Shown here one piece after another: positions 1,828-21,787 of a DNA stretch of 22,789 bases. Position 1 is the first letter of the stretch; every line of letters begins with the position of its first letter. A model generated the notes under the pieces. That model saw only the letters and a program-made list of their open reading frames with translations. It was not told where the DNA came from and did no database searches. The position numbers and the translations under genes are program-made. This stretch comes from a virus, in IMG/VR virus record IMGVR_UViG_3300046167_000392, positions 1 to 22,789 of that record, one strand, 5' to 3'.

Positions 1828-1835
1828 GAGAGTAT

Positions 1836-2660: not shown

Positions 2661-2669
2661 CCTATAAAC

Positions 2670-2683
2670 TGGGAATAATCCCA
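2670..2683 (+). other. Small hairpin in the leader of the major capsid gene
   Basis: TGGGA-ATAA-TCCCA forms a perfect 5-bp stem with a 4-nt loop in the 47-nt gap before the capsid gene. No U-tract follows, so it is not an intrinsic terminator. It lies about 25 nt upstream of the capsid ribosome binding site (ATAAGGA) and may affect mRNA stability or processing. I see no convincing phage RNA polymerase promoter around it. Confidence 0.4.
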
Positions 2684-2707
2684 CAACATTAAATATAAGG
2701 AATTAAT

Positions 2708-3685
2708 ATGCCTATCCCTTCAGACTCAACTCACTTGAGTGCTCAGGCTACGTCAGAAATGATTGAAGAGTATGCTGGCGCAGTGGATTCACAATTCGCT
2801 AAGTCGTCCATCATGCGTGGCTTCGTAAACATAGATAACCTACAAGGTACAGACACAAAGATTAAGCGTCGTGTCGGACGTACCGTTCTTAAGAAGGTAG
2901 TAGCTGGTGTAAGACCCGATGCTGCTCCAACTTCATTCGGACGTACAGCCGTAACAGTCGATACGATTTCATTAGCTCGCGATAACCGTGACCTATTGAA
3001 TGAGTTCCAAACAGACTTTAACGCACGTCAACAATTAGGTATGGACCACGGTAAAGAACTCGGTAAACTATTTGACCAAGCTCATATTATCGCAGCTATC
3101 AAAGGTGCAGCAGCAGCTGCTCCAACAGATGCCGATGGTACTAACTACAACGGTGCATTCGGTGCAGGTTCAACAACTACAATGACTGCATCTAATGATG
3201 ACCTAGACCCAACTAAGTTCTATGAAGCTATTGCTGCACAGATAACAGCTATGGAAGAAGAAGACATTGACATTGAAGAATGCGTTGTGTTCGTACGTCC
3301 AACATATCAAGACGTACTACTTAATAATGACAAATTACTTAACCGTGATTTCTCTTCAGACAATGGTGACTTTGCAAACGGTACATTCAGAACGCTTAAA
3401 GGTGTTCCGATTGTGTCTACTACCAGAATACCAACTGCTGCTATTACTAACCATGTAATGTCTGACGCTAAGAACTCTAACTTCTATAACGTAAGTGCTG
3501 CAGAAGCTAGAAGTAAAGCTATCATTATGCACCCTAAAGCTCTATTCGCTGCAGAGACTATACCATTAACTTCTAAGGTATACTACGACGATAAAGAACT
3601 TCAGTGGTTCATCGATTCATACTTAGCATTCGGTGTTAACTATGACAGACCAGATTGCGCTCGCGTAGTCCGTTCATTCGACTAA
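2708..3685 (+). CDS. Major capsid protein (T7 gp10A-like)
   Basis: This 325-residue protein is of similar length to T7 gp10A (345) and should adopt the HK97 fold and build the icosahedral shell. The order is typical: an N-terminal arm, an E-loop-like segment with basic residues (DTKIKRRVGRTVLKK, about residues 48-62), a central domain with VFVRPTYQDVLLNNDKLLNRDF (about 195-215), and a C-terminal strand region ending with AFGVNYDRPDCARVVRSFD. Synteny (scaffold before, terminator and tail tube after) supports it fully. The stop is followed within 12 nt by a strong intrinsic terminator, so there is no room for a T7 gp10B-style frameshift extension. C/G-ending codons such as CGT, GAC and AAC look commoner here than in its neighbours, as expected of a highly expressed gene. 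Confidence 0.97.
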   Translation: MPIPSDSTHLSAQATSEMIEEYAGAVDSQFAKSSIMRGFVNIDNLQGTDTKIKRRVGRTVLKKVVAGVRPDAAPTSFGRTAVTVDTISLARDNRDLLNEFQTDFNARQQLGMDHGKELGKLFDQAHIIAAIKGAAAAAPTDADGTNYNGAFGAGSTTTMTASNDDLDPTKFYEAIAAQITAMEEEDIDIEECVVFVRPTYQDVLLNNDKLLNRDFSSDNGDFANGTFRTLKGVPIVSTTRIPTAAITNHVMSDAKNSNFYNVSAAEARSKAIIMHPKALFAAETIPLTSKVYYDDKELQWFIDSYLAFGVNYDRPDCARVVRSFD

Positions 3686-3696
3686 ATAATTAACGA

Positions 3697-3729
3697 GGCT
3701 CTCCTGTTTATTCGGGAGGGCCTTTTTTT
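3697..3729 (+). terminator. Intrinsic terminator after the capsid gene
   Basis: GGCTCTCC pairs with GGGAGGGCC to make an 8-bp stem with one G-U pair, around a 9-10 nt loop, followed directly by seven T residues. It begins 11 nt after the capsid stop codon. This matches the place of the T-phi terminator after gene 10 in T7, where partial read-through sets capsid transcripts above tail transcripts. Confidence 0.88.
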
Positions 3730-3736
3730 GTTTTAT

Positions 3737-3775
3737 AGATTCCTGGGCTTTTGCTCTCCGTGGGTTCGGGAATCT
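3737..3775 (+). other. Second hairpin between capsid and tail tubular A genes
   Basis: AGATTCC (3737-3743) and GGAATCT (3769-3775) are perfect inverted repeats. The stem can be extended inward by G-U and G-C pairs. No U-tract follows, so it is not a canonical terminator. Its loop contains 3753-3771, an imperfect copy of the preceding terminator arm and loop at 3698-3717 (both begin GCTCTCC and end TTCGGGA). It could be an RNA processing or stability element, or a decayed terminator duplicate. Confidence 0.5.
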
Positions 3776-3801
3776 TTATAACAAAAAAGAAAGGGACTAC
3801 T

Positions 3802-4434
3802 ATGCCTACAACGGCCAACATTAAATTAAGTTTAATAAACAGTATGCTACGCACACTAGGGTCTGCTCCCTTAGCTGGTGCAGATACTTCGCATCCTGAT
3901 TATATCACAGCTAATGCTGTACTAGAAGAAGTCATAGAAGATTTCTCAAGTAAACCGCTATGGTTTAACAATTCAATAGAAACTCTATCACAAGATAACG
4001 ATGGTAGAGTTCCAGTACCTACTAATGCTGTAGCAGTTGACCCCACAGATGGGTCTAATCTAGCTGTCGCTGGTAACTTCTTATACAATGTAGATAAGAG
4101 AACAGACATTATAGGTAAAGATGTAGAGTGCTACGTTCACAGAGAAATAGAACTAGAGCTTATGCCCAGGGAAGCCCTTAAGTTTATTAGGGCAGCTTGT
4201 AGATTTAAGTTCTATGCAGACGAAGATGGTGGTATGCAAAAGTTACAAGTATATGCTCAGGCTGCACAGTTGTCAGAGCTAGAACTTAACTCTGTAAACA
4301 TAGCACGTATGGATATGAACTTCTTTGCCTCAGGCTCTGGAAGAACATTCTTTATACCTAGACCCTCTAACTATCAACACATTGGTAGTAGTGCTGGTTC
4401 AGGTGGAGTTAAAACAATATTTCAAACTAGCTAG
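3802..4434 (+). CDS. Tail tubular protein A (T7 gp11-like)
   Basis: This 210-residue protein (T7 gp11 is 196 aa) would form the dodecameric adapter ring below the portal. It begins with the family-typical segment IKLSLINSMLRTLGSAPL, followed by a DYITANAVLEEVIEDFSSKPLWFN block; both are characteristic of podovirus gp11 (short helix plus a loop that contacts the portal). The reading frame is open upstream to 3751, but those 17 codons overlap the hairpin. The ATG at 3802, with AAAGGGA about 6 nt upstream, gives the conserved N-terminus, so I chose it. Tail tubular B starts 8 nt after the stop with its own GGAGAAG site, so the two are co-translated in the T7 order. Confidence 0.93.
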   Translation: MPTTANIKLSLINSMLRTLGSAPLAGADTSHPDYITANAVLEEVIEDFSSKPLWFNNSIETLSQDNDGRVPVPTNAVAVDPTDGSNLAVAGNFLYNVDKRTDIIGKDVECYVHREIELELMPREALKFIRAACRFKFYADEDGGMQKLQVYAQAAQLSELELNSVNIARMDMNFFASGSGRTFFIPRPSNYQHIGSSAGSGGVKTIFQTS

Positions 4435-4442
4435 GAGAAGTC

Positions 4443-7016
4443 ATGGCTGATACAAATACATTAGGAAGTATGTTGCAAGGTATTAGCCAGCAACCTCCTC
4501 ACATAAGACGCGATGGTAAAGTAACAGAACAAGTTAACTTAATGTCAGACGTTGTAGAAGGAATAAAAACTAGACCAGGTTCTAAATTACTAGGTGTTAT
4601 AGAAGAAGGTACTGAACAGGTTATAATATATAAGCCTGGTGCAACAGGCCCTGCTACTGTGTATACAGGATTTAGAACTGGTGGTAAATTCTATACATTT
4701 ACAATGGATGGTAACACTTATCAAATAGGTATAAGTAAATTTGGTATAGAGATACTAAATCAAGAAGGAACTGTACTTACAACAAACTTAACACAAGCTG
4801 CTGAGGATTATATAAATGATATACAAGAAGACTTAGCTGTATATGTTTATGACAATGGTGAAGAAACAGTTGCGTATGTATTAAACAGAAACAAAGTAGT
4901 CGCTATGGATAACAGTGCTGCTACTATTGCAGCTCAAGAAGCTGAGGTAGTTAGAGATGTAGGATTAGTAACTTCTTTAGGAGGACAGTTCTCACATACC
5001 TATACAGTAAATGTATCAGCTGATAATAACGTAAACTTCAGTGGTTCTTATACAACACCTAACGGAACAGGTTCAGGCCATGCAGCCGAAACAACTTCTG
5101 ATTATATTGCAAACCAACTAAGAATTTCTTTAGCAGCATCTGCTCCTGTAGGTGCTACTATAGCAGTAAGTGGTTCTGTTGTATCTATTACAGGTCTTCC
5201 TGGGATAACTATTACAGTATCAGATGGTGAAGGTGGTGCTACATTAGTAGAATCAAGTAACGTAGCTAAGAACACAGACAAGCTTGCTAACACAGCACCA
5301 CACGGTACACTAGTTAAAGTACATGGATTAGACGGAACAGCAGATGATTTCTGGATGCGTTTTGAATCTAACTACACTAATACAGTAGGCTCTGGATTTG
5401 GAGATGAGGGTATATGGAGAGAGTGGTATAACGTATCCGAAGCAGCAGCTTTAGATGCTGGAACTATGCCAATGAAAATGACTCCTAATGCTGCTGGAAC
5501 TATTATGAATATAGATGTAGCTCCTTGGACACGGCGACGTGTAGGAGATTCAGAGACTAATCCTGCACCAGCATTCGTAGGTAAAAAAATAAAAGATATA
5601 AGTGGCTTTCAATCTAGACTTGTTACTGTAGCAGGACCTGTTACTAACTTCTCTGTTACTAATGAACCAACAGACTTCTTTAAGAACTCTGCTGTGGCTG
5701 AGATAGCAACTGACCCGATAGAAATAATATCAACAACTGCTGATGAGTTCAGTCTTTTGTATATAGTACCTTTTGATAGGGACTTAATATTGTTTGGGGA
5801 TAAAGTACAGTTCCTTGTTCAAGGCGGCAGTGCATTAACTTCATCTAACGCTTCATTAGTACAGACAACTGCTTACGATATACAAGATGGCGTTAGACCT
5901 GTAGCTACAGGTAGAACAGTTCTGTTTCCATTCTCTATAGGAGAATACGGAGGAGTAAAAGAGTTCTATACATCTGGTAACATAGAGGCTAATCAAGCTA
6001 TATCAATTACATCTAGTGTACCTAAACTTATAGAGGGTACTATAGAACAGATGAAGTACTCTGATACTGCTGATACATTACTTATAAAGTCTAACTTAAA
6101 TAAGTGGACATTGTATGGCTACAAACAGTTATGGGATGGCGAAAAGAAACTACAATCCGCATGGTTTAAATGGGAGTTCCCTGGAGAAATAATTAATTAT
6201 AACTTTGATAAGAATAAGTTATATGTATTACACTTTAAAGGTGGAGTAACTAGTGGGCATTACGGAGAAGTATGTCAAGTTGTATTAGACTTAGATAGTC
6301 CTAATGCAATTGGATTAGATTATCCGTTAGCTCTAGATTCATATGAAATATATAATGGAGATGGTACACCTGATTACGGTGTTAGTATGGGCAGAACTAA
6401 TATGCCTAACTATACAGACCCAGATGGTTACGTTTATTCTGTGTATCAATTCCTAGATAACAACCTAGTTATTATACAAGGTGCTGGGTGTGATAGTCCA
6501 GGGCAACCTGCAGAACATTTAACACCTACTGCTAGTGCATCTAATACTTATACAGATGGTACTGCTATGTGGTATGACTATAAGTTTCCTATTGCTACTG
6601 TACCTAAGAACTCTACACTATACGCAGGTTATGATATAACCTCTACATTTAAACCTACTATGCCGTTTATACGTGATAGTAATAACATAGTAATAAGATT
6701 TATAAGGTTAGTTATATCTAAGTTTATAGTTCATTTTAACAACAGTGGTCCTATGACTGCTACCGTAGGTAGTAAGTATAGAAGCGCATCTGCACAGATA
6801 ACATCTGTACGTACTTTGTCTAACGATGGAGTAGGATTAGCGTTTGACCCAGACGACCCTGAGGGGGACGGAATAAAGAGTGGAAGTTTTGATGTTCCTT
6901 TTAGAGAACAATCAGATATTTCTGAATTAACAATTACCGCTAATGGTGGTGTACCTATTAACATAAATGAAATAGAATGGGTAGGCCAAGTTCGTGGAGG
7001 AAAAAGGAGGTTATAA
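4443..7016 (+). CDS. Tail tubular protein B / nozzle (T7 gp12-like)
   Basis: This 857-residue protein matches T7 gp12 (794 aa) in length and place. It would form the hexameric nozzle closing the tail tip. The N-terminus carries the family signature: LGSMLQGISQQPPHIRRDGKV, then EQVNLMSDVVEGIKTRPGS (residues about 6-46), which is diagnostic of the gp12 family. The rest is beta-rich with many Thr/Ser/Gly/Asn residues, as in a beta-propeller nozzle. The C-terminus ends with a NEIEWVGQVRGGKRRL segment. The stop overlaps the start of the next gene (TAATG). The frame is intact over 2.5 kb. Confidence 0.96.
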   Translation: MADTNTLGSMLQGISQQPPHIRRDGKVTEQVNLMSDVVEGIKTRPGSKLLGVIEEGTEQVIIYKPGATGPATVYTGFRTGGKFYTFTMDGNTYQIGISKFGIEILNQEGTVLTTNLTQAAEDYINDIQEDLAVYVYDNGEETVAYVLNRNKVVAMDNSAATIAAQEAEVVRDVGLVTSLGGQFSHTYTVNVSADNNVNFSGSYTTPNGTGSGHAAETTSDYIANQLRISLAASAPVGATIAVSGSVVSITGLPGITITVSDGEGGATLVESSNVAKNTDKLANTAPHGTLVKVHGLDGTADDFWMRFESNYTNTVGSGFGDEGIWREWYNVSEAAALDAGTMPMKMTPNAAGTIMNIDVAPWTRRRVGDSETNPAPAFVGKKIKDISGFQSRLVTVAGPVTNFSVTNEPTDFFKNSAVAEIATDPIEIISTTADEFSLLYIVPFDRDLILFGDKVQFLVQGGSALTSSNASLVQTTAYDIQDGVRPVATGRTVLFPFSIGEYGGVKEFYTSGNIEANQAISITSSVPKLIEGTIEQMKYSDTADTLLIKSNLNKWTLYGYKQLWDGEKKLQSAWFKWEFPGEIINYNFDKNKLYVLHFKGGVTSGHYGEVCQVVLDLDSPNAIGLDYPLALDSYEIYNGDGTPDYGVSMGRTNMPNYTDPDGYVYSVYQFLDNNLVIIQGAGCDSPGQPAEHLTPTASASNTYTDGTAMWYDYKFPIATVPKNSTLYAGYDITSTFKPTMPFIRDSNNIVIRFIRLVISKFIVHFNNSGPMTATVGSKYRSASAQITSVRTLSNDGVGLAFDPDDPEGDGIKSGSFDVPFREQSDISELTITANGGVPININEIEWVGQVRGGKRRL

Positions 7017-7564
7017 TGTCACCAGCATTATTACAGGCAGGTATAAGCGCTGGTTCAGCGTTAGCAGGATACTTCCAGGCTAAAGAAGAAACTAAACTTA
7101 AACGTGAAAGCCAACGCCATAGAAACGCTATATTAAAATTAAACTCTAATTTGAAAAGAAACGCATTAGAGTTACAAGAAATAGACGCGCGTAACATTAA
7201 CAGGGATATAGATAAACAACTACAGCTTCAGAGTATGCAAGCAAAGGCAGCAGGAGAAGTTTCTTCTGCAGCCGCAGGGGTCTCAGGAGGTTCTGTTGAA
7301 GCTGCTATGAGAGGCTTAGAAAGAAACGCTATGTTTGCTCAAGCAGCTAGAATGAGAAACACTTCTACTACGTTTAGAAAGTTAGGCCAACAACGCAGAA
7401 ACATTAACGTAGGAGAAATACTAGGTGAAGATAGAACAGTTATTCCAGGACCTAGTGTAGGTAGTTTACTACTAAGTATGGGAACAGCTGCTGTAGATGC
7501 GTATGGAACAAATACTCAGTTTGCCAACCCAGCACTTAATAAGTTTTTTGAAGGAAGGAAATAG
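7016..7564 (+). CDS. Internal virion / ejection protein (T7 gp14-like)
   Basis: This 182-residue protein starts at the ATG overlapping the gp12 stop (TAATG), with a strong AAAAAGGAGG site just upstream. An in-frame TTG further upstream (6977) would give 13 more residues but lacks a site and lies inside gp12. T7 gp14 (196 aa) is the smallest of the three core proteins and inserts in the outer membrane during ejection. Features here are an Ala/Gly-rich hydrophobic N-terminus (residues 1-20), a long charged helix with many Arg, Asn and Gln, an Ala/Gly-rich segment around AAAGVSGGSVEAAMRG, and a second hydrophobic stretch (SVGSLLLSMGTAAVDAYG) near the C-terminus. T7 gene 13 has no counterpart between this gene and gp12. 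Confidence 0.88.
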   Translation: MSPALLQAGISAGSALAGYFQAKEETKLKRESQRHRNAILKLNSNLKRNALELQEIDARNINRDIDKQLQLQSMQAKAAGEVSSAAAGVSGGSVEAAMRGLERNAMFAQAARMRNTSTTFRKLGQQRRNINVGEILGEDRTVIPGPSVGSLLLSMGTAAVDAYGTNTQFANPALNKFFEGRK

Positions 7565-7566
7565 AT

Positions 7567-10500
7567 ATGTCTACTCCTAGAAGACAAGTTATAGAATCTA
7601 ATATAGAAAATTCTTTACAAAGAGAACAGGAAGCACAACAAGCTCCTGCTTTTCAGTCAGGCACAGGTACAGGCCCAATATTAAATAATTTTACATCTCA
7701 AGCTTTAGGACAGGTGCAAGGTTATTTAACTCAAGGTGCTCAAAATATTGTTAGTCATAAACAAGAAGAGCAGTTTATAAGTGGTGCTATGGACTACCTA
7801 CAAGGTAAAAGTGTAGAAGAGTTACAAGAGAATTCAGGTAGAAACTTGCATAGAAATAAAGGCTATATGGTATTAGATGTTAATAATAAATTTACATCTT
7901 TTTTAAATGAGTTTAAAAATAAAATAGGTACAGATTATTATTCACAGTCTCCTGAAGAATTTAAGGAAACATCTTCAACACTTTTTGGAGAACAACTTAA
8001 AGGTTTAGACCCATTAACAGGTAATATGTTTAAAGAAAAATTATTGCCTATGCTTCCACAACTTACTGAAATGCATATGGTAGCTCACGATAACTTTAAT
8101 ACAGGGGAAACTATTAAAGCAGTAAAGGAAACTATTGGAACTATAAATAAAAATAGTAGTGAAGACGATGTTCTTCAAACTATGTTAGACATAAAGGCTA
8201 CAACAAGCTCACTAAATCCTGAACAACTAAATGCTTCTATAACTAATGGCATTTTAGAATCGTTAGTACAAAATGATAACCTTTATTCTTATCAGGCTTT
8301 TAGAGATAGTATGTATTGGAAAGACTTGCCTCTGGACCAAAAAAATAGTCTTAGTAGCGCATATAGTAAAACAGTAGGGAAAATTATTTCTAAGTTTGAT
8401 TTAGAAACAGAAGAAAAATTTAACGCTATTATAAAAGAATACAATAGTATTAATGGTTCTATGAATGATACAGCCTTTAGAGATGCAATGTTGGGTGTAT
8501 TTAAAGAACAAGGTATACGGAAAGAAGATATTCTTTCTTCTTACTTTGATACAAAAATAACAGAAAAAAAGGCTAACGTAGAAAAACTTAATATAGTAAA
8601 CTTAAGAAATGCTATGATTAAAGACACTAATTATGACACACAAAGGCTTGCAGAAACATTATCTATTCATCTAAATCAAGAAAATAAAACATTAAACATA
8701 GAAGGTATTGGAGAGGTACTTAATGGAAAGACCCCTTATAATATTGGATTAGCCGATGAAGATTCTAAAGGAGTAGATGATGTATCTATAGCTATAGCAT
8801 CAACAAAATTTTCAGCGGAAGAAGTTAATGCTTGGTCTGAGAAAGGTGGCCCAGATGGAGAGATACAAAAGTATATCTCAACGTATTACGATAGGAAATT
8901 AAAAAAACCTATTACACAATATAATGAAGAAATAGAAAGAGTAATGGCGTCTACTGCAGACCAAATTAAAGACCTCGGTAACTTAGAATATGGAAACTTT
9001 ACTAAGACAGTTAATGAGTTAACATTTAAATATGGTAACGGTATGATTACTGAAAAAACTCTTGAGGAAGGATTAAAAAAAGCTATTGCTGCTCCTAACC
9101 TTCCTGTAACCCAAGCCATGTTTGCTTTAGGTCCTAATATAAAATCTAATCGTAGAGATAAACTTTATCAAGACCAAGTAAGAGAAAAAGTAACCCGCCT
9201 AAACAATGACTTAGCTGGTATTAATACTGAGTATAACGAAACTCTTACAAAGTTATTTAAGGATACTATACCTGAGGTTGAAGATATTGATGAAGTAAAA
9301 CAAACTTACCAGGCTAAGGTATTAAACGCAATTCAAGATTCAAATTTAGACCCTGCTATTGTTAATAAAGCTGTACCTTTAGTACAATTAGAAAACGCAA
9401 TTAGCGCCGCACAAAAAGAAAGAGCGTATCAAGAAGTAATTTTAAAAACGTCAAGACAATACCAAAAAACAAATGGTGACTTTCCAAAAGATAAAGATGG
9501 TCTTTATTTAAACGCTTCTATATTAGACAAAGGTTTTAATGAGCAGCTAAATAGTAATGTTACAAATCGTGTAGCAGAAGAATCAACTAGACCTATTCCA
9601 CTAGCACCAGCTTCTGAAGGTATATCACCTCTTGATGTAGCAGACACTATTATTGACACAAAGTATATACCAAATAAATATAAAAGTCTAGGTATTTCTG
9701 ATATAATTTTTAATGCAAGTGACACAGAATTAGATGTGTCTGCGGCAGCTAGAATACAAAGCGAGTCAATTCTTTATAGTGCACTAAAAAAAGAAGGATA
9801 TCCCTATCTTGCTCAACAATTAGGTACTGCTAAAGACCGAGCTTTATTAGAAACTTTAGAAAATAATAGAGAACTTTCAGGAAGTTTTGAAGGCGCTCTA
9901 CGTGAAACTATTGCTTCAGGCTCACAATTAAATCCTGTAGTCTATAAAGAAGTTATTACAGAACTAGATGAGTTTATTGAAAACGAGTATAAATTAAGTG
10001 ACCTTATTATATCAGGTGATAACACTGATTATATTACATCTACACTTCATATGATAGCTGCAGAGACTCTGATAAAAGATAGTGGTGGAAAAAAATCACA
10101 GAGTATGAAGACTATTAAAAAGAGACTTAGTAATTTTATGAGAGATAATGTAGTCACTGTTAAAGACTCGGGTGTTACAAGCACTTTAATCCATAAAAAC
10201 CCAGATGAATCTTTCATGGGTTATATGTTTCAGGGAGCGTATGCAGACGTTATTAAACCTAAAGCCGTTCCTGATATAGTTAGAAAATTCTTAATAGACA
10301 AAGAAAGTACATTAGATAAAGAAAAGAAAGACGTAACAACTACTTTAACAACAAAAGTAAAAGTCGTAGATTCTTTATTTAAAACTGTGGGTATTGGAGA
10401 AGCAAAGGGCAATATATTTAGTAGAAACATGGGTGTTAATATTACGTATAATTCTAAGGTAGGTACGGCGGTTGTAAGAATGCAACCTGCTTATGCAAGT

Positions 10501-10689
10501 AAAGCAGAACAAAGTGCTTACATTGCTAATGGAGGAAAAGTAACTTTAGATGTAATAGACTTACAAGAAGTAGGTAAATGGTATACAAAAACATATAAAG
10601 ACGAGCTACTAGCAAAAGTAAAGCGAAAGCAGAAAAGACAGCGAGGAACTGTGGATGCTATGTCTTATACTGTTTTTGGTATGTTATAG
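7567..10689 (+). CDS. Internal virion / ejection protein (T7 gp15-like)
   Basis: This 1040-residue protein lies two bases after the gp14-like gene. T7 gp15 is 747 aa, so this one is distinctly longer. It is highly charged, helical and rich in Lys, Asn, Glu and Thr, with a Gln-rich N-terminus (SLQREQEAQQ) and a Gly/Thr segment near residue 30. I see no signal peptide, membrane span or lytic transglycosylase motif. In T7, gp15 forms the periplasmic tube of the ejection machine together with gp16. The role here is inferred from order, size and general character, since sequence similarity in this family is weak. The gene looks more A+T-rich than the capsid gene. An intrinsic terminator begins 14 nt after the stop. 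Confidence 0.8.
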   Translation: MSTPRRQVIESNIENSLQREQEAQQAPAFQSGTGTGPILNNFTSQALGQVQGYLTQGAQNIVSHKQEEQFISGAMDYLQGKSVEELQENSGRNLHRNKGYMVLDVNNKFTSFLNEFKNKIGTDYYSQSPEEFKETSSTLFGEQLKGLDPLTGNMFKEKLLPMLPQLTEMHMVAHDNFNTGETIKAVKETIGTINKNSSEDDVLQTMLDIKATTSSLNPEQLNASITNGILESLVQNDNLYSYQAFRDSMYWKDLPLDQKNSLSSAYSKTVGKIISKFDLETEEKFNAIIKEYNSINGSMNDTAFRDAMLGVFKEQGIRKEDILSSYFDTKITEKKANVEKLNIVNLRNAMIKDTNYDTQRLAETLSIHLNQENKTLNIEGIGEVLNGKTPYNIGLADEDSKGVDDVSIAIASTKFSAEEVNAWSEKGGPDGEIQKYISTYYDRKLKKPITQYNEEIERVMASTADQIKDLGNLEYGNFTKTVNELTFKYGNGMITEKTLEEGLKKAIAAPNLPVTQAMFALGPNIKSNRRDKLYQDQVREKVTRLNNDLAGINTEYNETLTKLFKDTIPEVEDIDEVKQTYQAKVLNAIQDSNLDPAIVNKAVPLVQLENAISAAQKERAYQEVILKTSRQYQKTNGDFPKDKDGLYLNASILDKGFNEQLNSNVTNRVAEESTRPIPLAPASEGISPLDVADTIIDTKYIPNKYKSLGISDIIFNASDTELDVSAAARIQSESILYSALKKEGYPYLAQQLGTAKDRALLETLENNRELSGSFEGALRETIASGSQLNPVVYKEVITELDEFIENEYKLSDLIISGDNTDYITSTLHMIAAETLIKDSGGKKSQSMKTIKKRLSNFMRDNVVTVKDSGVTSTLIHKNPDESFMGYMFQGAYADVIKPKAVPDIVRKFLIDKESTLDKEKKDVTTTLTTKVKVVDSLFKTVGIGEAKGNIFSRNMGVNITYNSKVGTAVVRMQPAYASKAEQSAYIANGGKVTLDVIDLQEVGKWYTKTYKDELLAKVKRKQKRQRGTVDAMSYTVFGML

Positions 10690-10702
10690 TTAATTATATA
10701 TT

Positions 10703-10728
10703 AGAGAAGGAGTATTCCTTCTCTTTTT
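10703..10728 (+). terminator. Intrinsic terminator between gp15-like and gp16-like genes
   Basis: AGAGAAGGA and TCCTTCTCT form a perfect 9-bp stem around a 4-nt GTAT loop, followed by four more T residues. It sits in the 54-nt gap before the gp16-like gene, whose own AAGGAGG site follows within 15 nt. It should lower transcription of the downstream genes relative to those upstream. Confidence 0.75.
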
Positions 10729-10743
10729 ACTTAAGGAGGTTTT

Positions 10744-11985
10744 ATGCCTAAAGAATTAAATGAAGAAGAAGAAGAAAAAACTACTTTTAGTTTAGTGTCT
10801 GACGAAATGGGTAGCGTAGGAACTAGAAACTTTCAAGCCCGTGTAGACGAACAAGTAGGGTTTTTGGGAAATGTTGGTTTAGGGGTTGGATATGCTTATA
10901 AGTATTTAGAAAGAAAAGTAAGAGATGAGTCCCCTAAAGCGTTTGAAAAAAGGAAGATTGATTACGACCCCAATGAAAATGGCACAGGTCTTTCTAAAGA
11001 AGGAGTAGACTTTATAAACGCCGTTGGAAAAGGGCTAGTTAATATTGAAACTATATTTGACCTTAACTCTCCTGAATTTATTGACCCTGATTTAGATTTA
11101 GAAGAGATATACGACGAGGCTACTGAAGGTATCCCAACAAAGTATCACGTTGATATTTTAGCTTACGGTAATAGAGCAGGTATTATGAGGGCTAGGCAAC
11201 GTGTTCTAGATGATATGCAAAGGCATGACATAATGAGTAAGCAATTTGGTTTTACTGTTACCCAAATGGCAGGTTCTTTAATAGATGTAGACTTACCCCT
11301 TATGCCCTTCTTTGGCGGCGGTAAGTTGTTAACAACTACAGGTAATGCAGTTCTTAAACAGAGTATTAAAACAGGTCTTGCATCAGGTACTGCGTCAGGT
11401 GCTTTAATAGGCGGTGTTATAGCTACTAGTAAAGAAGGTGCAGGTGCATCAGACGCTATGTTGTTTACAGCATTAGGTGCTATAACAGGTGGTGTTATGG
11501 GTGCAGGTACTGGTGCTATAGGACAAATGTACGCTAATAAATTAACAAAGTTAGGTGATGATTTAGTAGAACGTGTTTCTAAAGAAGGGGAAGGACCAGA
11601 TGGTGTTGTTACTCCTGAAACAGCAGTAGTTCCACCTAAAGTGAATGAAACCTTTAAACCCTTGCCTACGGGAAAAGATACTATAAAAGGAGAAATTTTT
11701 GAAACACCTAAGAGAAAGAAGGGTGAACCTAAGCGTACTAAAAGAACAAGTTCTGGCGGAGAATCTTTAAGTAAAACTTCAAATGATGTTATAGATAATG
11801 TTACTAAGGATTTAGATAGTATAGACTTTCTTAAAAGAAGAGTGGAAGCAACAAAATCTGCAGCGTTTTATATAGCTTCTATTCCAGGAGTAATGAGAGC
11901 TTTTGGTGTAGGTCTAGGTTTTAAAATGTTTAAATCAGATGCGTCAGTACTTCAATTGGATATCTGCAAGAGTTGTAGAAGGTAA
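10744..11985 (+). CDS. gp16-like internal virion protein, segment 1 (N-terminal)
   Basis: This segment holds the ATG start, preceded by AAGGAGG. It is 413 codons as read, of which about 405 belong to the real protein and the rest follow the first shift. It begins with an acidic stretch (ELNEEEEEK). Two Gly/Ala-rich hydrophobic segments (about residues 211-227 and 239-262) could be membrane-active. A Lys/Arg-rich linker follows (around TPKRKKGEPKRTKRTSS). Its last meaningful part, FKMFKSDASVLQL, runs on into ISARVVEGNFW in the next frame if one G of the GG at 11958-11959 is removed. I find no Glu-containing transglycosylase signature in the first 150 residues, unlike T7 gp16. Confidence 0.78.
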   Translation: MPKELNEEEEEKTTFSLVSDEMGSVGTRNFQARVDEQVGFLGNVGLGVGYAYKYLERKVRDESPKAFEKRKIDYDPNENGTGLSKEGVDFINAVGKGLVNIETIFDLNSPEFIDPDLDLEEIYDEATEGIPTKYHVDILAYGNRAGIMRARQRVLDDMQRHDIMSKQFGFTVTQMAGSLIDVDLPLMPFFGGGKLLTTTGNAVLKQSIKTGLASGTASGALIGGVIATSKEGAGASDAMLFTALGAITGGVMGAGTGAIGQMYANKLTKLGDDLVERVSKEGEGPDGVVTPETAVVPPKVNETFKPLPTGKDTIKGEIFETPKRKKGEPKRTKRTSSGGESLSKTSNDVIDNVTKDLDSIDFLKRRVEATKSAAFYIASIPGVMRAFGVGLGFKMFKSDASVLQLDICKSCRR

Positions 11986-12457
11986 CTTTTGGGTTAGGTA
12001 TGGTTCAAGTACATCTTCAGCCTTTGATAATCTTATTACAATGAAAATATTAGAACATATAAGAGACATAGATAACTTTTATTTAGCTTACAAAAAAGTA
12101 AAAGGACAAGAACCTGAAACAAAAAGAGGTTTACCTATAGTAGATAAAAACACTAAGAGAGAAGTAAATAGATTAGTATTTTTAGAAATGGATGCTAGAA
12201 GCCGTGGTGGAACTTTTACTGACGATGTAAATGTATTAAAAATTGCTGATGCTGTATCAAAGTCTATGCAAGAAGCAGCAGATAGTGCACAAGCTAAAGG
12301 CATGAACCCAAATAAAAGTGTCCGTGGGTCTGGAAGTATGACTAAAAAAGGATACATTCCTAAAGTCTTTACAGGTAGAATAGGAGATATTATTAGAAGA
12401 GCGCCTGAAAATTTAAAAGCAGCTACTAGGTCTGCCTTTGTTAAAGGCCTTGTCTGA
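11939..12457 (+). CDS. gp16-like internal virion protein, segment 2
   Basis: This frame shows no ribosome binding site and overlaps segment 1, so the ATG at 11939 is unlikely to be a true start. The genuine coding part probably runs from about 11960 (ISARVVEGNFWVRYGSS) to about 12445 (AATRSAFVK). It is helical and charged, with MTKKGYIPKVFTGRIGDIIRR near the end. It continues in segment 3 as ALSDNYINI once one base of AAAGG at 12443-12447 is removed. Read alone it stops at TGA (12455-12457). Confidence 0.72.
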   Translation: MRQYFNWISARVVEGNFWVRYGSSTSSAFDNLITMKILEHIRDIDNFYLAYKKVKGQEPETKRGLPIVDKNTKREVNRLVFLEMDARSRGGTFTDDVNVLKIADAVSKSMQEAADSAQAKGMNPNKSVRGSGSMTKKGYIPKVFTGRIGDIIRRAPENLKAATRSAFVKGLV

Positions 12458-12791
12458 CAATTATATAAATATAAACCCTGCTTTTACAAAAGAAGTAGCA
12501 GATTCTTTAGCGGAAAGTATTGTTAAAAGAAGCTTAGATAAAAGTTCTAACTTAGATATTGATATGGGTGCAGGAAGTTTATTAGTAGGTGACGGTAGAA
12601 AAATGTTACAACAAACTTTAACAGAGTCTGGCCTTTCTGAAAAACAAATAAAATCTTTTATGAAAAAGCTTGAGACAAGTATTAGAGAAAAAGGTACAAA
12701 AGACTTTACAAAACAAAGAAACGAGCTAGATTTATCTGCAGAGATTATGTTACCTACTGGAGAAAAAAGTACAAATAGTAGATTTAATTAA
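12438..12791 (+). CDS. gp16-like internal virion protein, segment 3
   Basis: This is the continuation in the third frame. It carries KALSDNYININPAFTKEVAD at the start and LDLSAEIMLPTGEK before the next break. The formal TTG start at 12438 has no ribosome binding site and lies inside segment 2. After the A6 run at 12773-12778 the frame gives only seven unrelated residues and a TAA. The next frame gives VQIVDLINTNLQEVTQRYARKV, an ordinary helical continuation. This marks A6 as the shift point. Confidence 0.7.
   Translation: MLKALSDNYININPAFTKEVADSLAESIVKRSLDKSSNLDIDMGAGSLLVGDGRKMLQQTLTESGLSEKQIKSFMKKLETSIREKGTKDFTKQRNELDLSAEIMLPTGEKSTNSRFN
12773..12778 (+). other. A6 run at a frame junction of the gp16-like gene
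   Basis: Six consecutive A residues (context GGAG-A6-GTAC) lie exactly where segment 3 must pass into the next frame. Five A residues would join PTGEK to VQIVDLIN without a gap. Such a run is both a usual place for sequencing length errors and a possible polymerase slippage site. Confidence 0.6.
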
Positions 12792-12849
12792 TACTAATCT
12801 TCAAGAAGTAACTCAGAGATATGCGCGTAAAGTATCAGGGTCTTCTGCT

Positions 12850-13125
12850 TTGGCTATGGTTGGTATAAGAAGTTCAGATGATATAGAAAAAATTATTAAA
12901 GCTGCTTTAGATGAACAAGATTCTTTAGGAATACCTTTAAATAAACAGGTAAGTAGAGAAGAGCTTACTTCTATATTCTCTCATTTTACAGGTGGTCCTG
13001 TTCAAGGATACGGTAAACTTTTATCTGCTGGTAGTTTAGAAGCTCAAGGTGCTTTAGTATCTACCATGAAGAGAGGCGCTAACTTTGCGTACCTTGACCA
13101 GATGGGGACCTACTCAGGTTATTGA
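12850..13125 (+). CDS. gp16-like internal virion protein, segment 4
   Basis: This frame is open from 12730, well before the TTG at 12850 that is formally its first start codon. Protein-like sequence begins at about 12776 (VQIVDLINTNLQEV, then RYARKVSGSSALAMVGI). It continues helical and charged to ANFAYLDQMG, then reaches a TGA at 13123. Removing one G of the G4 run at 13104-13107 converts QMGTYSGY-stop into QMGPTQVIEFGNQI, which leads into segment 5. No ribosome binding site supports separate translation. Confidence 0.68.
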   Translation: MAMVGIRSSDDIEKIIKAALDEQDSLGIPLNKQVSREELTSIFSHFTGGPVQGYGKLLSAGSLEAQGALVSTMKRGANFAYLDQMGTYSGY

Positions 13126-14386
13126 ATTTGGAAACCAGATAAGTACTTATGGCGTAGCTTCTTTCATTGAGCGTGGAATTAAACCTATGTTTAGTGGCAA
13201 GTCTAGAAAAGAAATGAACGCTTTTTTAGAAGACGTTGCGTTTTTGTCAGGGGATATGAGTTTAGAACATAGAACTCTAGCAATGCACAGAAATCTAGAC
13301 GACTTTAGTACTAAAGAACGTGGACACTTTATGGATAAGCTTGTAGAGTACGGGGGAAACATGCAGTACTTGCAAGCGTATGTATCAGCTTATAACTTTG
13401 TTAGAAAAACTCAACAACGTATTTCTATGATGGGTGCTGCTGACAAACTATTTAGAACCGTATATAAGTCAATGGATAAAAATGGTAAAGTTGTAATGTC
13501 TAAACAAAATCAAAGAAGAATGCTTGATGGATATAATGCAGACTTTAATAGATTACAACAGTACGCTGACCTTATATCAGATGGTACAGTACAAATGCGG
13601 AAGACTGCGTTAGGATTTAGCTTTACTAATAAACTAAATTCTCAAACATGGTCTGATGAATTAGCAAAAGAGTTCGGAGCTAGTATACATCTAAATGTAA
13701 ACCAGGCTATACAAAAAGCTATGGCAGGAGAACAAGACCCTTGGATGTTTACTAGAATAGGAAGTCTTGCAACACAGCTTGTAACTTTCCCTATGCTTGC
13801 ATTTAATAAACAATTTTTAAGACAGATATATATGAAAGATGTTGAATCTATTACTGCAACATTATACAGTTTAGGAGCAGCTGGTGCGGTATCTGTACTT
13901 AAAGATAAGCTTAATCAAAGAGAACCAAGAAGTACTGCAGAACATGCTATTAGAGCGGTGTCATATTCTAATGTATTGGGCTGGCTTCCTATGAATACTA
14001 ACGTTATAGGAACTATATCAGGCATAGATGAACTTAGGTTTGCTAATAAATATACAGACCAAGCAGGTCTTACTCCTGTGGCTGTTAAGTGGGGAGAAGA
14101 CCTTATGAGAGTTTTACCTGCTACGGCAGCATATATAAAAGGAACAGCTGATAATAAAGATAAGAGTGCTTTTAATGCTTTACCTTATACAGGTGTTGTT
14201 GGTTGGACTAGAGCTATAAATAACGCTGGTACTCGTAATGTAGATAAGAAAACAGAAACAAGTATACTTAATGCTATGAAAGATATTGATAAATTTTATG
14301 AAAACCCTCAGTCCTTTAACTTTAAAGAGTTATGGGATGATACTGATGGTACAAGTTTATCATACTTAAAAGACATGTTTGACTAA
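13085..14386 (+). CDS. gp16-like internal virion protein, segment 5 (C-terminal)
   Basis: This is the C-terminal third of the protein. Coding probably begins at about 13106 (PTQVIEFGNQISTYG); the formal TTG start at 13085 has no ribosome binding site. The block LVTFPMLAFNKQFLRQIYMKDVES, then a Gly/Ala-rich hydrophobic stretch (LYSLGAAGAVSVL), resembles the conserved C-terminal part of large podovirus internal proteins, where an aromatic/Asn-Lys-Gln-Phe helix precedes a hydrophobic segment. The frame stays open for 433 codons and ends 9 nt before the hairpin that precedes the tail fibre. Confidence 0.76.
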   Translation: MRTLTRWGPTQVIEFGNQISTYGVASFIERGIKPMFSGKSRKEMNAFLEDVAFLSGDMSLEHRTLAMHRNLDDFSTKERGHFMDKLVEYGGNMQYLQAYVSAYNFVRKTQQRISMMGAADKLFRTVYKSMDKNGKVVMSKQNQRRMLDGYNADFNRLQQYADLISDGTVQMRKTALGFSFTNKLNSQTWSDELAKEFGASIHLNVNQAIQKAMAGEQDPWMFTRIGSLATQLVTFPMLAFNKQFLRQIYMKDVESITATLYSLGAAGAVSVLKDKLNQREPRSTAEHAIRAVSYSNVLGWLPMNTNVIGTISGIDELRFANKYTDQAGLTPVAVKWGEDLMRVLPATAAYIKGTADNKDKSAFNALPYTGVVGWTRAINNAGTRNVDKKTETSILNAMKDIDKFYENPQSFNFKELWDDTDGTSLSYLKDMFD

Positions 14387-14395
14387 TAAAATACT

Positions 14396-14415
14396 GGGGG
14401 GCCATAAGGCCCTCC
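14396..14415 (+). other. G/C-rich hairpin before the tail-fibre gene
   Basis: GGGGGGCC-ATAA-GGCCCTCC forms an 8-bp stem with one G-U pair and a 4-nt loop, 9 nt after the gp16 stop. It lacks a following U-tract, so it would be a poor intrinsic terminator in a standard system. It may block or process mRNA. A close structural counterpart sits on the other side of the tail-fibre gene at 18332-18349. Confidence 0.6.
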
Positions 14416-14427
14416 TCAACTTTAACT

Positions 14428-14454
14428 AAAGGAGGCTAGATTGGCCCTAACTAC
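14428..14454 (+). repeat. Flanking direct repeat, left copy (SD and start of tail fibre)
   Basis: AAAGGAGGCTA followed by a non-ATG start and a CCTAACT-containing first codon set. The same arrangement recurs at 18356-18381, just after the tail-fibre gene. The 11-base core is identical, GGAGG lies 5 nt from the start codon in both, and the following bases align with small gaps. It holds the ribosome binding site of the tail fibre. Confidence 0.55.
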
Positions 14455-17400
14455 AGTGGAATACACATACTCAGGACAAGCGTCATTTGCTATCCCTTTC
14501 TCATTAGGTATACTTAATAGAGCGTATGTAACTATTCAAATAAACAATCAGGTAGATGGTTCAGGCGACCCTCTTTACTATACTAACTTTACCTGGACTA
14601 GTGACAGTGAAGTTGTAATAAACGGACTAACTAACGGAGATATAATTAAAATAGCTAGAACTATCCCTAGTAATTTGTTGCTATCAGATTACACGGCAGG
14701 TTCTAACATAACAAGAGATAACTTAAACATAGCTAACAAGCAGCTTATAATGCTTATACATGAAGTGTTAGATAAGAATGTTACTCAACAGACTAAGCTA
14801 GATACCATTGAATCAGGAGCTACTGCAGACCAGACTGCTGCTGAAATAAAGACAGCTTACGAGAGTAATGCTAACACTAATGCATTCACAGATGCAGACG
14901 AGAGTAAGCTAGATGGTATAGAGGCTGGTGCTGATATAACAGATACAGCTAATGTAACTGCAGCTGGTGCTGTAATGGATTCTGAAGTAACAGACCTTGT
15001 AGGTATTAAAGCTGTTACTGTATCTACTCTACAAGTAAAACCTGCTGAAGGTGCATTCGTAGATGGAGATAAGACAAAGCTAAATACTATAGAGACTAAT
15101 GCTGATGTTACTGACACAGCTAACGTAGTAGCAGCTTTAACTGCAGGTACTAATATAACTATAGCGTCAGATGGTACTATAGCTTCTACTGCTACAGGCG
15201 GTGGCGGTGGTGTATCTGATATAGTAGACGACCTTACTCCCCAGCTTGGAGGAGACCTAGACCTTAATAATCAGGATATAACAGGTACAGGTAATATAAG
15301 TATTACGGGTACAGTTAACACTAGAGATATGGCTGTTGATGGCGCTAAGCTAGATGCAATAGAAGCAGGTGCTACTGCTGACCAAACTAAGGCTGATATA
15401 GATGCATTAGGATTAGATTATAACAATCTAGTCAATACACCTACTATACCTGGTTCTGGGCCTTCTGGATACGCTACTGAGTCTTATGTAGACACAGCAG
15501 TAGCTGACATAGTAGACTCTGCTCCTGGTACGTTAGATACGCTTAATGAATTAGCACAGGCTTTAGGGGATGACCCTAACTTTGCTACTACTACAGCTAC
15601 TAACCTTAGTCAAAAGCTACCTAAAGCTGGTGGCACTATGACAGGTAAATTGACACTTGAATCCTCAGACCCAGAAATATTTCTTGTAGATACAAATACG
15701 AATGTAACTACGAGTATTGATGCCAACTCTAGTGCTGGTTCATTACAAATCCACGTTGATAAAGACGAAACAGCTTCAGACCCTAAATTTATTGTTAATG
15801 TTGGTTCGCAAAACAATGTTTTAGTTGCTAAAAGCACTGGTATAGATGTGACAGGTAATGTAGACTTGCCAGACAACGGTAAATTATTACTAGGTGCTTA
15901 TGATGATTTACAAATCTATCACGATGCTAGTAACTCATATATTAGAGATGTAGGAACAGGTAACTTATTTATAGATGCTACAAGTTTACGACTAAGAACA
16001 GGTGCAGGAACTGAAACATATTTGACAGCAGATGGTAACGGTTCCGTTGATTTATATTATGATAATAGTAAGAAGTTTGAAACAACATCAACTGGTATAG
16101 ATGTAACAGGTAATGTCAATTCTACTGCAAGTTTAACCTTTGGTTCAGGCGGTGCGTATGAAGCGGGTTCTATTTATTCTGATGCAAATTGGGGTATGAT
16201 ACATCGTGCCTACACAGCTAGTCCCGTACAAGCAGACCATTTGTTTGTAAATAGTGCGGGTACGGAGCGTATGCGTATTGATGCTTCTGGTATAGATGTA
16301 ACAGGTAATGTTGTAGGGGATGGATTAACCATAGCAGGTGACGCTACTTTTACAGGTGGTGGTACAGGCTCAATCGTTATTAATGACGAAGATAGTTCAC
16401 TATGCCCTACTATGACATTCTTAAGAAATGGTGGCGGTACAACTACTAATGACTTTATTAAGTTCGAAAATAGTGGTGGCGAAGTAGCTAATATAGATTC
16501 TACAGGCGGTGCATTATTTAGGGAACTAAAAGTTAAAGGTTCTAACACACGTAGAATAGATATCTCTAATACCACATTAGCTGATACAGGTGAGATGGCT
16601 ACATTACAGTGGGATAACAGTGCTAACTTTACGATACAAGGTAGAACAAGTTCAGGTAGCTTTGCTGCTAATTGGTATTCAATACAAACGTCAGATACTG
16701 ATGGGCGTGCAGATGCACATATATTTTATACTGATGCTAGTACAGAACGTATGCGTATTAATAGTACTGGTGTGGGCATAGGTAGTACATCACCGAGTTC
16801 ACTACTACATTTAGCATCGAACGCACCTTATATTACATTTGAAGATGTTGATAACAATCAAGATTGGCAGATACAGGCAACTGCGTGGTTTGCTATACGT
16901 GACCAAACTTCAAACGCAGAACGTATGCGTATTGATAGCTCAGGTAACGTAGGCATAGGGAATGCGGCACCGACTGCTAAGCTTAGTGTGGCAGGTGATA
17001 TAGACGTTGCTAATGGAACAACATATACAACCACAGGTGACTTCTTAGCTAAAGTACAACAAAACTCTAACGCATCGGGCAAGAACGGGTTATCCGTTAT
17101 GAATGCTTGGGCAAGTCCCACTTCAACAATATTTGAAGCGGCTATGGGTTGGAATGGTGTAGCGGCAGGTTATTATCCAGTTTTCACAATAGACGGATTA
17201 GGTAAAACTACTTGGACAGATAATGCTGGTAATGTTAGGGCTACCATAGATGGAAGTGGGTTAGATGTAACAGGTGGTATAGAAGTTAATAATTCTACTA
17301 ACTACAGGGGTATTCATCTAAGAGGGAATGGCGCACCAAATGTTACGTTTGGAAGAAACAATGTAACTACAGCAGAATGGAAAGCAGGTATATCAGGAAA

Positions 17401-18328
17401 CACAGGTACATCTTTCACAATCAGTGAGGGGACTGCGGCGGCATCAGAAAGATTAGTGATTGCTACAGGCGGTAACGTGGGCATAGGTACTTCAGCACCA
17501 AGCTATAAGCTTGATGTACGTGGTGCGGCTAACTCTGATGTTGGTATACAAGTTAAAGCATCAGGTACAGGTGATGTAGATGCAGAGCTTAGACTAGATG
17601 CGGCTGATACAGGTGAATCACTTGTTAGGTACGCAAGGGATGGAACAACACGAGCTGTATCAGAATACACAAATAGTAATGAATGGAACTTTACAACTTA
17701 TAATAATGATAAGATTGACTTCCAGCCTAACAGTACAAATGTGCTTAGGTTAACAGATAATAATATATACGCTTATAAAACAGTTAATGTAACAGGTGAC
17801 TTAACCGTATCAAGCACAATAGAAGTTGGTTCGTTAACTCCTAATCAAGATGGTGCAATTGAAGTTGGTGTGTTAGGGTTTGGTACACCCGCTATAGCAT
17901 CTACAACTGATAGTACATTATTACGTAGTCACATTATATTTGATAACCCTAATGGTGCTGTTGGTAAGATTAACACAACAGGTTCACAGACTTTTTATGT
18001 AACTAGCTCAGACTATAGGCTCAAGACTGATATACAGCCTATGCAAGGGAGTATTGATAGGATAAAAGCACTGAAGCCTTGTAATTTCCAGTGGACACTT
18101 GATGGCACTAGAGTAGATGGCTTTATAGCACATGAAGCACAAGAGGTAGTACCAGAAGCTATTGTTGGTGAAAAAGATGCTACTAAAACTAACAAGGATG
18201 GTGTAGAGGTTCCAGACTATCAAGGTATTGACCAAAGTAAGCTTGTACCTTTACTTACATCTGCACTACAAGAAGCATTAGCTAAGATTGATGACCTAGA
18301 GTTACGCATGGCTAATTTAGAAAGTTAA
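14441..18328 (+). CDS. Tail fibre with T7-type N-terminus and S74 chaperone C-terminus
   Basis: This 1295-residue protein is over twice T7 gp17 (553 aa). The TTG start is chosen because GGAGG lies 5 nt upstream and the protein then begins with the T7-type tail-attachment domain: TVEYTYSGQASFAIPF, then VTIQINN and DIIKIARTIPSNLLLSDYTAGS (residues about 4-95). Residues about 115-400 have helical and beta phage-fibre repeats (DAIEAGATADQTKADI; SAPGTLDTLNELAQALGDDP; LPKAGGTMTGKL). The shaft carries IDVTGNV modules at about 467, 552, 617 and 940, and ERMRI modules at 609, 769 and 827. At the C-terminus SDYRLKTD (from S1190) and GFIAHEAQEVVPEAI (from 1227) identify a Peptidase S74 intramolecular chaperone, which trims itself off before the SD motif once the trimer has folded. 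The fibre should bind the host surface. Confidence 0.95.
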   Translation: MALTTVEYTYSGQASFAIPFSLGILNRAYVTIQINNQVDGSGDPLYYTNFTWTSDSEVVINGLTNGDIIKIARTIPSNLLLSDYTAGSNITRDNLNIANKQLIMLIHEVLDKNVTQQTKLDTIESGATADQTAAEIKTAYESNANTNAFTDADESKLDGIEAGADITDTANVTAAGAVMDSEVTDLVGIKAVTVSTLQVKPAEGAFVDGDKTKLNTIETNADVTDTANVVAALTAGTNITIASDGTIASTATGGGGGVSDIVDDLTPQLGGDLDLNNQDITGTGNISITGTVNTRDMAVDGAKLDAIEAGATADQTKADIDALGLDYNNLVNTPTIPGSGPSGYATESYVDTAVADIVDSAPGTLDTLNELAQALGDDPNFATTTATNLSQKLPKAGGTMTGKLTLESSDPEIFLVDTNTNVTTSIDANSSAGSLQIHVDKDETASDPKFIVNVGSQNNVLVAKSTGIDVTGNVDLPDNGKLLLGAYDDLQIYHDASNSYIRDVGTGNLFIDATSLRLRTGAGTETYLTADGNGSVDLYYDNSKKFETTSTGIDVTGNVNSTASLTFGSGGAYEAGSIYSDANWGMIHRAYTASPVQADHLFVNSAGTERMRIDASGIDVTGNVVGDGLTIAGDATFTGGGTGSIVINDEDSSLCPTMTFLRNGGGTTTNDFIKFENSGGEVANIDSTGGALFRELKVKGSNTRRIDISNTTLADTGEMATLQWDNSANFTIQGRTSSGSFAANWYSIQTSDTDGRADAHIFYTDASTERMRINSTGVGIGSTSPSSLLHLASNAPYITFEDVDNNQDWQIQATAWFAIRDQTSNAERMRIDSSGNVGIGNAAPTAKLSVAGDIDVANGTTYTTTGDFLAKVQQNSNASGKNGLSVMNAWASPTSTIFEAAMGWNGVAAGYYPVFTIDGLGKTTWTDNAGNVRATIDGSGLDVTGGIEVNNSTNYRGIHLRGNGAPNVTFGRNNVTTAEWKAGISGNTGTSFTISEGTAAASERLVIATGGNVGIGTSAPSYKLDVRGAANSDVGIQVKASGTGDVDAELRLDAADTGESLVRYARDGTTRAVSEYTNSNEWNFTTYNNDKIDFQPNSTNVLRLTDNNIYAYKTVNVTGDLTVSSTIEVGSLTPNQDGAIEVGVLGFGTPAIASTTDSTLLRSHIIFDNPNGAVGKINTTGSQTFYVTSSDYRLKTDIQPMQGSIDRIKALKPCNFQWTLDGTRVDGFIAHEAQEVVPEAIVGEKDATKTNKDGVEVPDYQGIDQSKLVPLLTSALQEALAKIDDLELRMANLES
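15839..17281 (+). repeat. Recurring shaft modules inside the tail-fibre gene
   Basis: The stretch GGTATAGATGT(A/G)ACAGGTAATGT occurs at 15839, 16094 and 16289, and a diverged copy occurs at 17258. A second module, GA(A/G)CGTATGCGTATT, occurs at 16265, 16745 and 16919. The near-identity is at DNA level, not only protein level, so the copies are either recent duplications or kept alike by recombination. Confidence 0.75.
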
Positions 18329-20801: not shown

Positions 20802-21179
20802 ATGTCTAAGAAAGACAAACCGACCCAGACTAAGCCAACTGTAAGAGTAGTTGGTACTAACTCTAATAAACTACCCTGGCCTCAGGATAACTCAGGCTCA
20901 ACTCAGGAACTACGTAGAGGTGCTGTACGCGCCATAGGACGTATCATGGGTTCAGAAGATAATCTAAAGAAAGTACTAGAAACGCTAGAGGTAGCTAGGC
21001 TGTATGCTATAGAGCGTATGGAAGAGCAGCAAGTAGAAATGAAAGTTAAAGTAAAAGCAATGCAAGACCGTAAAGCTCTTAATGCAGAGCTATTGAAAAG
21101 TGAACTAAGACAAAGAGTAAAGTCTAAGAAGGCTGAGATAAAACGTGTTGAGTCTGAGATAAAGAAGTTGTTAAGCTAA
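20802..21179 (+). CDS. Unknown charged coiled-coil protein between terminase and endolysin
   Basis: This 125-residue protein is not recognised. The ATG follows GGGAGAA with good spacing. Residues 1-35 are polar and probably disordered (Lys, Thr, Pro, Asn). From about residue 36 to the end it is a long Lys/Glu/Arg-rich helix with strong coiled-coil character (ERMEEQQVEMKVKVKAMQ; KSKKAEIKRVESEIKKLLS). It has no signal peptide, membrane span or lipobox, so it is not an obvious spanin despite its lysis-side location. It is translationally coupled to the endolysin by a TAATG overlap, which suggests a role in lysis or a late packaging/structural function. Confidence 0.8.
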   Translation: MSKKDKPTQTKPTVRVVGTNSNKLPWPQDNSGSTQELRRGAVRAIGRIMGSEDNLKKVLETLEVARLYAIERMEEQQVEMKVKVKAMQDRKALNAELLKSELRQRVKSKKAEIKRVESEIKKLLS

Positions 21180-21787
21180 TGGACATAGCAGCATTCTTTG
21201 ATTCTGTACGTCCCTTTATGAAAGACAGTAAGCTAACTGCTGCACAGGTAGTAGGCTTTGAGTGTCTTATAAATTCTTGTTTAGAGTCCGACCTTACAAT
21301 GGAACAGATAGCCTATGTACTGGCTACAGCTTACCATGAGACAGGTGGACGCATGGAACCTGTACGAGAAGGGTTCTGTAAGACCGACGCTGGTAGCCGT
21401 AAGGCAGTAGCTAGGTTATATGAGAAGGGTGTAATAAGCGTAGACTATGCGTTACCACAGAGTAACGGTAAGAGCTATTATGGCCGAGGGTTAGTACAGC
21501 TAACGCATCTAAGTAACTACGCAAGCACAGGGCATGCACTAGGATTAGACCTGGTGACGTATCCAGACCTTATGCTAGACTTAGAGGTATCAGTACGCGC
21601 TATGATATGGGGTATGAAGACAGGGAGCTATAGGAATAAAAGCCTAGCTGATATGTTACCCTACGAGAACCCTACGTACTCTGAGTGGACTAAGGCTAGA
21701 GGTATTATAAACGGTGACGTAGGAAAGAATGGTCCTATGATAGCTGGGTATGCTACTAAGTTCTACACAGCATTGAAGGAGATGTAA
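21179..21787 (+). CDS. Endolysin, glycoside hydrolase family 19 / lysozyme-like
   Basis: This 202-residue peptidoglycan-degrading enzyme carries AYHETGG (51-57), with E54 the likely catalytic acid, followed by E64 as second acidic candidate. Then come YYGRGLVQLTHLSNY (100-114) and RGIINGD (174-180), the usual motif series of GH19 chitinase-like endolysins with the lysozyme-superfamily fold. It would cleave beta-1,4 bonds of the glycan strands. There is no signal peptide, so release depends on a holin, and a three-TM holin follows with a 1-bp overlap (TAATG). This differs from T7, whose endolysin is an amidase (gp3.5) coded in the early/middle region, so the lysis module is of another origin. 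Confidence 0.88.
   Translation: MDIAAFFDSVRPFMKDSKLTAAQVVGFECLINSCLESDLTMEQIAYVLATAYHETGGRMEPVREGFCKTDAGSRKAVARLYEKGVISVDYALPQSNGKSYYGRGLVQLTHLSNYASTGHALGLDLVTYPDLMLDLEVSVRAMIWGMKTGSYRNKSLADMLPYENPTYSEWTKARGIINGDVGKNGPMIAGYATKFYTALKEM

Follow-up and report, generated by a model that had tools for sequence, protein, structure and literature searches.

Four single-base frame breaks in the gp16-like gene of a T7-like phage contig are most likely local consensus errors

According to PMC8954989, the ejection proteins of podophages are needed for infectivity, and P22 and Sf6 do not conserve the transglycosylase domain of T7. Proteins of the T7 gp16 type are described by the profile PHROG 342 (internal virion protein with endolysin domain). 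In the window (the whole stretch of DNA analysed here, 22,789 nucleotides of the virus record IMGVR_UViG_3300046167_000392, a marine T7-like phage), the gene that matches this profile is, by contrast, broken in the consensus, its reading frame changing at four places that are referred to below as joints 1 to 4. The large terminase of the window was 61% identical to that of phage MedPE-SWcel-C56 (KX397280; Autographiviridae, listed under Kafavirus). A hypothetical protein of that phage, ANS06237.1, showed 34% identity over residues 395-1155 of the corresponding protein of a close relative of the window, and its gene runs in a single intact frame across all four joint regions, whereas the window is broken there. 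No paper was found in a literature search for MedPE-SWcel-C56. The gp16-like gene had no blastn match in phage records, so named phages were comparable at the protein level only.

The structural module of the window follows the T7-like order of head-tail connector (PF12236), tail tube (PF17212), internal virion protein (phrog_805 match, 6977-7564), a gene in the place of gp15, the gp16-like gene and the tail fibre. Downstream of the tail fibre come a DNA-packaging protein (PF11123) and then the large terminase. The gp15-like gene (7567-10689, 1040 residues) was named from its position alone, and its product had no family match and no Pfam match at E 0.001. The gp16-like gene follows the gp14- and gp15-like genes and precedes the tail fibre, which is the T7-type position. 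Its pieces 1, 3 and 5 matched PHROG 342, while pieces 2 and 4, searched alone, had no family match. The match of piece 1 begins at profile position 268, leaving the first 267 positions unmatched. The N-terminal transglycosylase domain was not found, and the relative's whole protein had no Pfam match at E 0.001. Since P22 and Sf6 do not conserve this domain either (PMC8954989), its absence here does not argue against a gp16-like role. Across 7567-14386, the ejection proteins (gp15-like and the relative's gp16-like) were without a Pfam match at E 0.001, so that no peptidoglycan hydrolase domain was visible. Further along, 21179-22266 encodes an enzyme of the GH19 chitinase class (PF00182), which is probably the endolysin, and then a gene-transfer-agent-type holin (PF11351). 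The tail fibre gene (14441-18328), which matches tail fibre families, has a TTG start with a strong Shine-Dalgarno site (-11.6), and the start in the relative is also TTG.

The gp16-like gene (10744-14386, plus strand) consists of five overlapping open frames in the order 1, 2, 3, 1, 2, every step being +1. These frames end at 11985 (frame 1), 12457 (frame 2), 12791 (frame 3), 13125 (frame 1) and 14386 (frame 2). When the intact protein of the relative was compared with the window by tblastn, it aligned in five pieces in the same five frames, the alignments of pieces 1 and 2 extending slightly beyond a stop. Piece 1 (10744..11985) corresponds to residues 1-419 of the relative and matched phrog_342 at E 8.5e-12; piece 2 (11939..12457) corresponds to residues 403-583, and piece 3 (12438..12791; phrog_342, E 7.3e-15) to residues 565-674. 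Piece 4 (12850..13125, counted from its first possible start codon) corresponds to residues 673-787, and its homology starts directly 3' of joint 3. Piece 5 (13085..14386; phrog_342, E 1.1e-32) runs to the natural stop and corresponds to residues 783-1212. The gene's own start had a Shine-Dalgarno energy of -13.3 kcal/mol; the first starts of pieces 2, 3, 4 and 5 had energies of -2.7, -3.6, -3.8 and -7.9, and the value for an ATG within piece 3 (12603) was -8.9. Weak sites were also seen at some ordinary genes of the window (-0.8 at 6977, -1.9 at 21179, -1.6 at 22223 and -4.1 at 18974).

One close relative, IMGVR_UViG_3300017740_000200 (L002), was found by scanning viral contigs with the last piece of the gene; the same relative recurs in our set as L004, L009, L010 and L076. 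It carries the same gene in the same place, with DNA 94.6% identical over 10900-15103, and the next homologues had about 40% protein identity, so that close comparison relies on a single contig. The window fails to encode a T7 gp16-type protein in one intact open frame, having five pieces, whereas the relative has a single frame of 1212 codons, exactly the length that the initial annotation had proposed for the repaired gene. Over 11300-14386 the window differed from the relative by exactly four single extra bases, at 11953, 12446, 12763 and 13108, all absent from the relative. The only other gap in this interval lay at the cut edge, 11299. Over 10900-11300, gaps of 3 and 6 bases kept the frame; a one-base gap at 10902 lay beside the cut edge, and a longer alignment shows none there. 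The open frames and this alignment thus agree with the initial annotation that four single-base frame changes of the same sign are clustered in the gp16-like gene.

The alignment to the relative also located each joint. At joint 1 (frame 1 to 2), the window has an extra C at 11953, between TT and AA and outside any homopolymer run. At joint 2 (frame 2 to 3), the extra base falls in a GG pair at 12446..12447. Joint 3 (frame 3 to 1) is a run of six A at 12763..12768 where the relative has five, and joint 4 (frame 1 to 2) is an extra A at 13108, between GGGG and CC. Joints 2 and 3 are therefore run-length changes and joints 1 and 4 are not. All four joints had originally been placed in G or A runs; this stood for joints 2 and 3, but joints 1 and 4 fell outside the G runs named for them. 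The position given for joint 2 (12446-12447) was correct, while the A6 run had been put at 12773-12778, ten bases too high. Aligning the joints with homologues, as had been suggested, thus showed a relative lacking all four bases, with two placements shifted off their runs. Among the peptides predicted across the joints, FVKALSDNY and QMGPTQVIE are present in the relative; GEKVQIVDL is not, the relative having GEKVQMVDL, and in place of the joint 1 peptide SVLQLISARVVEG it has SVLNWISARVVEG. When viral contigs were scanned with each joint pattern containing one optional base, the sole match was the relative, with the base absent at all four joints; the match lengths of 23, 30, 29 and 35 are those of the patterns without the extra base. 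As the collections may lack the record of the window itself and others very close to it, these scans provide one independent witness, not many.

Substitutions in the patch between the first and last joint (11953-13108) followed the intact frame. There were 29 substitutions against the relative in 1156 bases, and 18 of these fell on the third base of a codon in the intact frame (P 0.0014). The ratio of silent to non-silent changes was 16:13 in the patch and 50:40 in the flanks (P 1.0), and substitution density was 2.5% in the patch versus 4.7% in the flanks. No nonsense changes, deletions, excess of substitutions or relaxed selection were seen when these signs of decay were sought in the patch against the relative, in line with the earlier statement that the gene is not visibly decaying. 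To judge from these substitutions, evolution of the patch has been that of an intact coding frame, no different from its flanks. Divergence from the relative is far greater in the latter portion of the gp15-like gene and at the beginning of the gp16-like gene (7567-10689 and 10744-11300) than in the sequence on both sides, a mosaic pattern; BLAST aligned little of 8943-10702 to the relative, and 11920-12387 is nearly identical.

The sequence upstream of the patch appeared to be of good quality. Over 1513-8570 (7058 bases) there was no net indel against the relative: each sequence has a single 2-base gap, and the two gaps are separated by nine bases. BLAST gave 96.7% identity and 18 gap letters over this interval. 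Two other contigs matched the upstream window at 99.3% identity over 4197 bases with no gap (L083) and at 98.5% over 5754 bases with 2 gap letters (L077), and it is this agreement among three contigs that shows the upstream sequence to be good. Positions 8571-10899 and those beyond about 15.1 kb were too diverged or too patchily aligned to the relative, and quality there rests on the open frames. The remaining long genes each form one open frame and none is visibly out of frame, bearing out the remark that no other complete gene of the window is broken. Within the comparable parts of the window, the extra bases were confined to the patch. Four breaks inside 1156 of 22,266 bases would be expected with P about 5e-4 under random placement. 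For at least four breaks in 22.8 kb, P was 0.0013 when the rate was set to 2 indels per 100 kb, and 0.0002 when it was set to that of related loci (9 in about 780 kb). Within the patch, 4 insertions in 1156 bases correspond to a rate of about 346 per 100 kb. Long-read viral assemblies (PMC6487183) likewise show insertions only, and the patch rate is close to that of the long-read-only assemblies in that study; in contrast to the errors described there, the insertions of the window are confined to 1.2 kb.

The relative's protein was also compared with 70 other loci, comprising four phage records, 60 viral contigs (the relative included) and six bacterial genome contigs; several are near copies, and they do not amount to 70 independent cases. 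The best alignment spanned at least one joint in 68 of the 70 loci and all four joints in 38, the relative among them. No stop was found in 37 of these 38, although one of the 37 (L042) lacks two bases close to where its alignment begins. L073 lay in two frames and L030 had one stop in the first comparison, and a more sensitive search of four loci that had shown a stop or short frames revealed a second frame in L029 and L042 as well. Altogether, 66 of the 70 loci had neither frameshift nor stop in the aligned part, or 65 if a possible frame change in L054 is counted; this change, indicated by two queries, lies near the gene start (L054:640), outside the part aligned to the relative's protein. 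Among loci found later, L079 and L082 had the gene in one frame, and the others with gp16 were repeats of known contigs or partial (L091). The L029 break, one extra base relative to L021, is no more than about two codons from joint 1, and the L042 break, a 2-base deletion relative to L033, about a dozen codons before it; other breaks were away from the joints. Because the changes in L029 and L042 lie in other sequence, their nearness to joint 1 was informally judged to be chance.

A search for frame changes in the 70 other loci (about 778 kb), using plus-strand stop-to-stop frames of at least 250 amino acids, identified nine places: three in L029 (one of them in gp16), one each in the gp16 genes of L042, L073 and L054, and one each in other genes of L023, L065 and L068, those of L065 and L068 being seen with one query each and possibly alignment effects. 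With 4 of 9 in gp16, which by a rough estimate makes up about 30% of the searched DNA, there was no clear excess that would mark gp16 as a hotspot of breaks. The gp16 frame changes were all net +1, both the four of the window and those of L029 (184-216), L042 (6013-6046), L073 (6851-6928) and L054 (640). The same sign in eight of eight cases has a chance of 1 in 128 if both signs are equally likely, and the five changes outside gp16 were mixed (three +1, two +2). This shared sign is mildly odd but probably due to chance. L029 (IMGVR_UViG_3300002035_000016), with its three frame changes (150-420 and 6718-7638), looks like another error-rich contig. In a limited literature search, neither this phage nor a clustering of frameshifts in gp16 was encountered, although reports of them may be in print.

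Taken at face value, the contig reads as a gene that is truly broken by four recent insertions, either in a defective genome or in one complemented by intact co-infecting relatives. Single breaks of gp16 do occur elsewhere, as frameshifts in L029, L042, L073 and possibly L054 and as a stop in L030, although these may be errors too. However, four insertions stand in the patch with no deletion, nonsense change, substitution excess or relaxed selection beside them, and the other genes of the window are open. Moreover, if ejection proteins are needed for infectivity, as PMC8954989 states, a genome broken in this way should not dominate a sample. We consider a truly broken gene improbable. Still less credence is given to a phage population that truly has the four +1 changes and lives on intact co-infecting relatives or by repeated frameshifting.

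Programmed recoding, in which ribosomes would shift +1 at all four joints to make one full-length protein, would suit the uniform sign of the steps and the fact that no stop intervenes ahead of each joint; the gp16 frame changes of L029, L042 and L073 (clear) and L054 (possible) are also net +1. Yet the close relative reads through all four joints in one frame, no break was seen at joints 2, 3 and 4 among the other loci, and the frame change is not conserved among the 70 loci, the L029 break near joint 1 being in different sequence on a contig with two further frame changes. The four joints differ locally and share no motif by eye, and few ribosomes would reach the end of the protein if they had to shift four times in a row, making recoding extremely improbable. 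Equally hard to credit is a gene whose fragments are translated independently and then come together as a functional protein. The Shine-Dalgarno site of piece 5 is fair and that of the internal ATG of piece 3 stronger, and the weak sites of ordinary window genes mean that weakness is no disproof, but the first starts of pieces 2, 3 and 4 are weak beside the gene's own, and the gene of the relative is in one frame.

On the sequence comparisons, the four extra bases are very probably uncorrected single-base insertion errors in a local stretch of the contig consensus, 11953-13108 (about 1.2 kb). The differences are absent from the relative, of the same sign, local and without signs of decay. A local low-quality stretch of the assembly, which the initial annotation had favoured as the simplest view, is supported by the intact gene of the relative and by changes that are insertions only, all within 1.16 kb; it is backed further by the lack of a net indel upstream, by the lack of relaxed selection and by joint scans that matched only the base-free relative. 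Two points weigh against consensus errors: two of the four extra bases lie outside homopolymers, so run-length error cannot account for all of them, and such clustering would need a local cause, for instance shallow read depth or the closing of a gap with a single read of poor quality. The patch may rest on few or noisy reads, for example unpolished long reads, the platform not being readable from the sequence. Pyrosequencing run-length errors are unlikely as the sole cause because joints 1 and 4 involve no change of run length.

The breaks are present in the sequence as given and most likely absent from the phage, which most likely encodes an intact 1212-residue gp16-like internal virion protein. 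By analogy with T7 gp16, this protein would enter the host cell envelope and help draw in the DNA. Genuine breaks would either call into question whether podophages need their ejection proteins to infect, or represent an extreme case of recoding; as an artefact they matter for annotation only, and the locus should be listed as a single 1212-residue gp16-like gene in which consensus errors are suspected, rather than as a pseudogene or as five separate genes.
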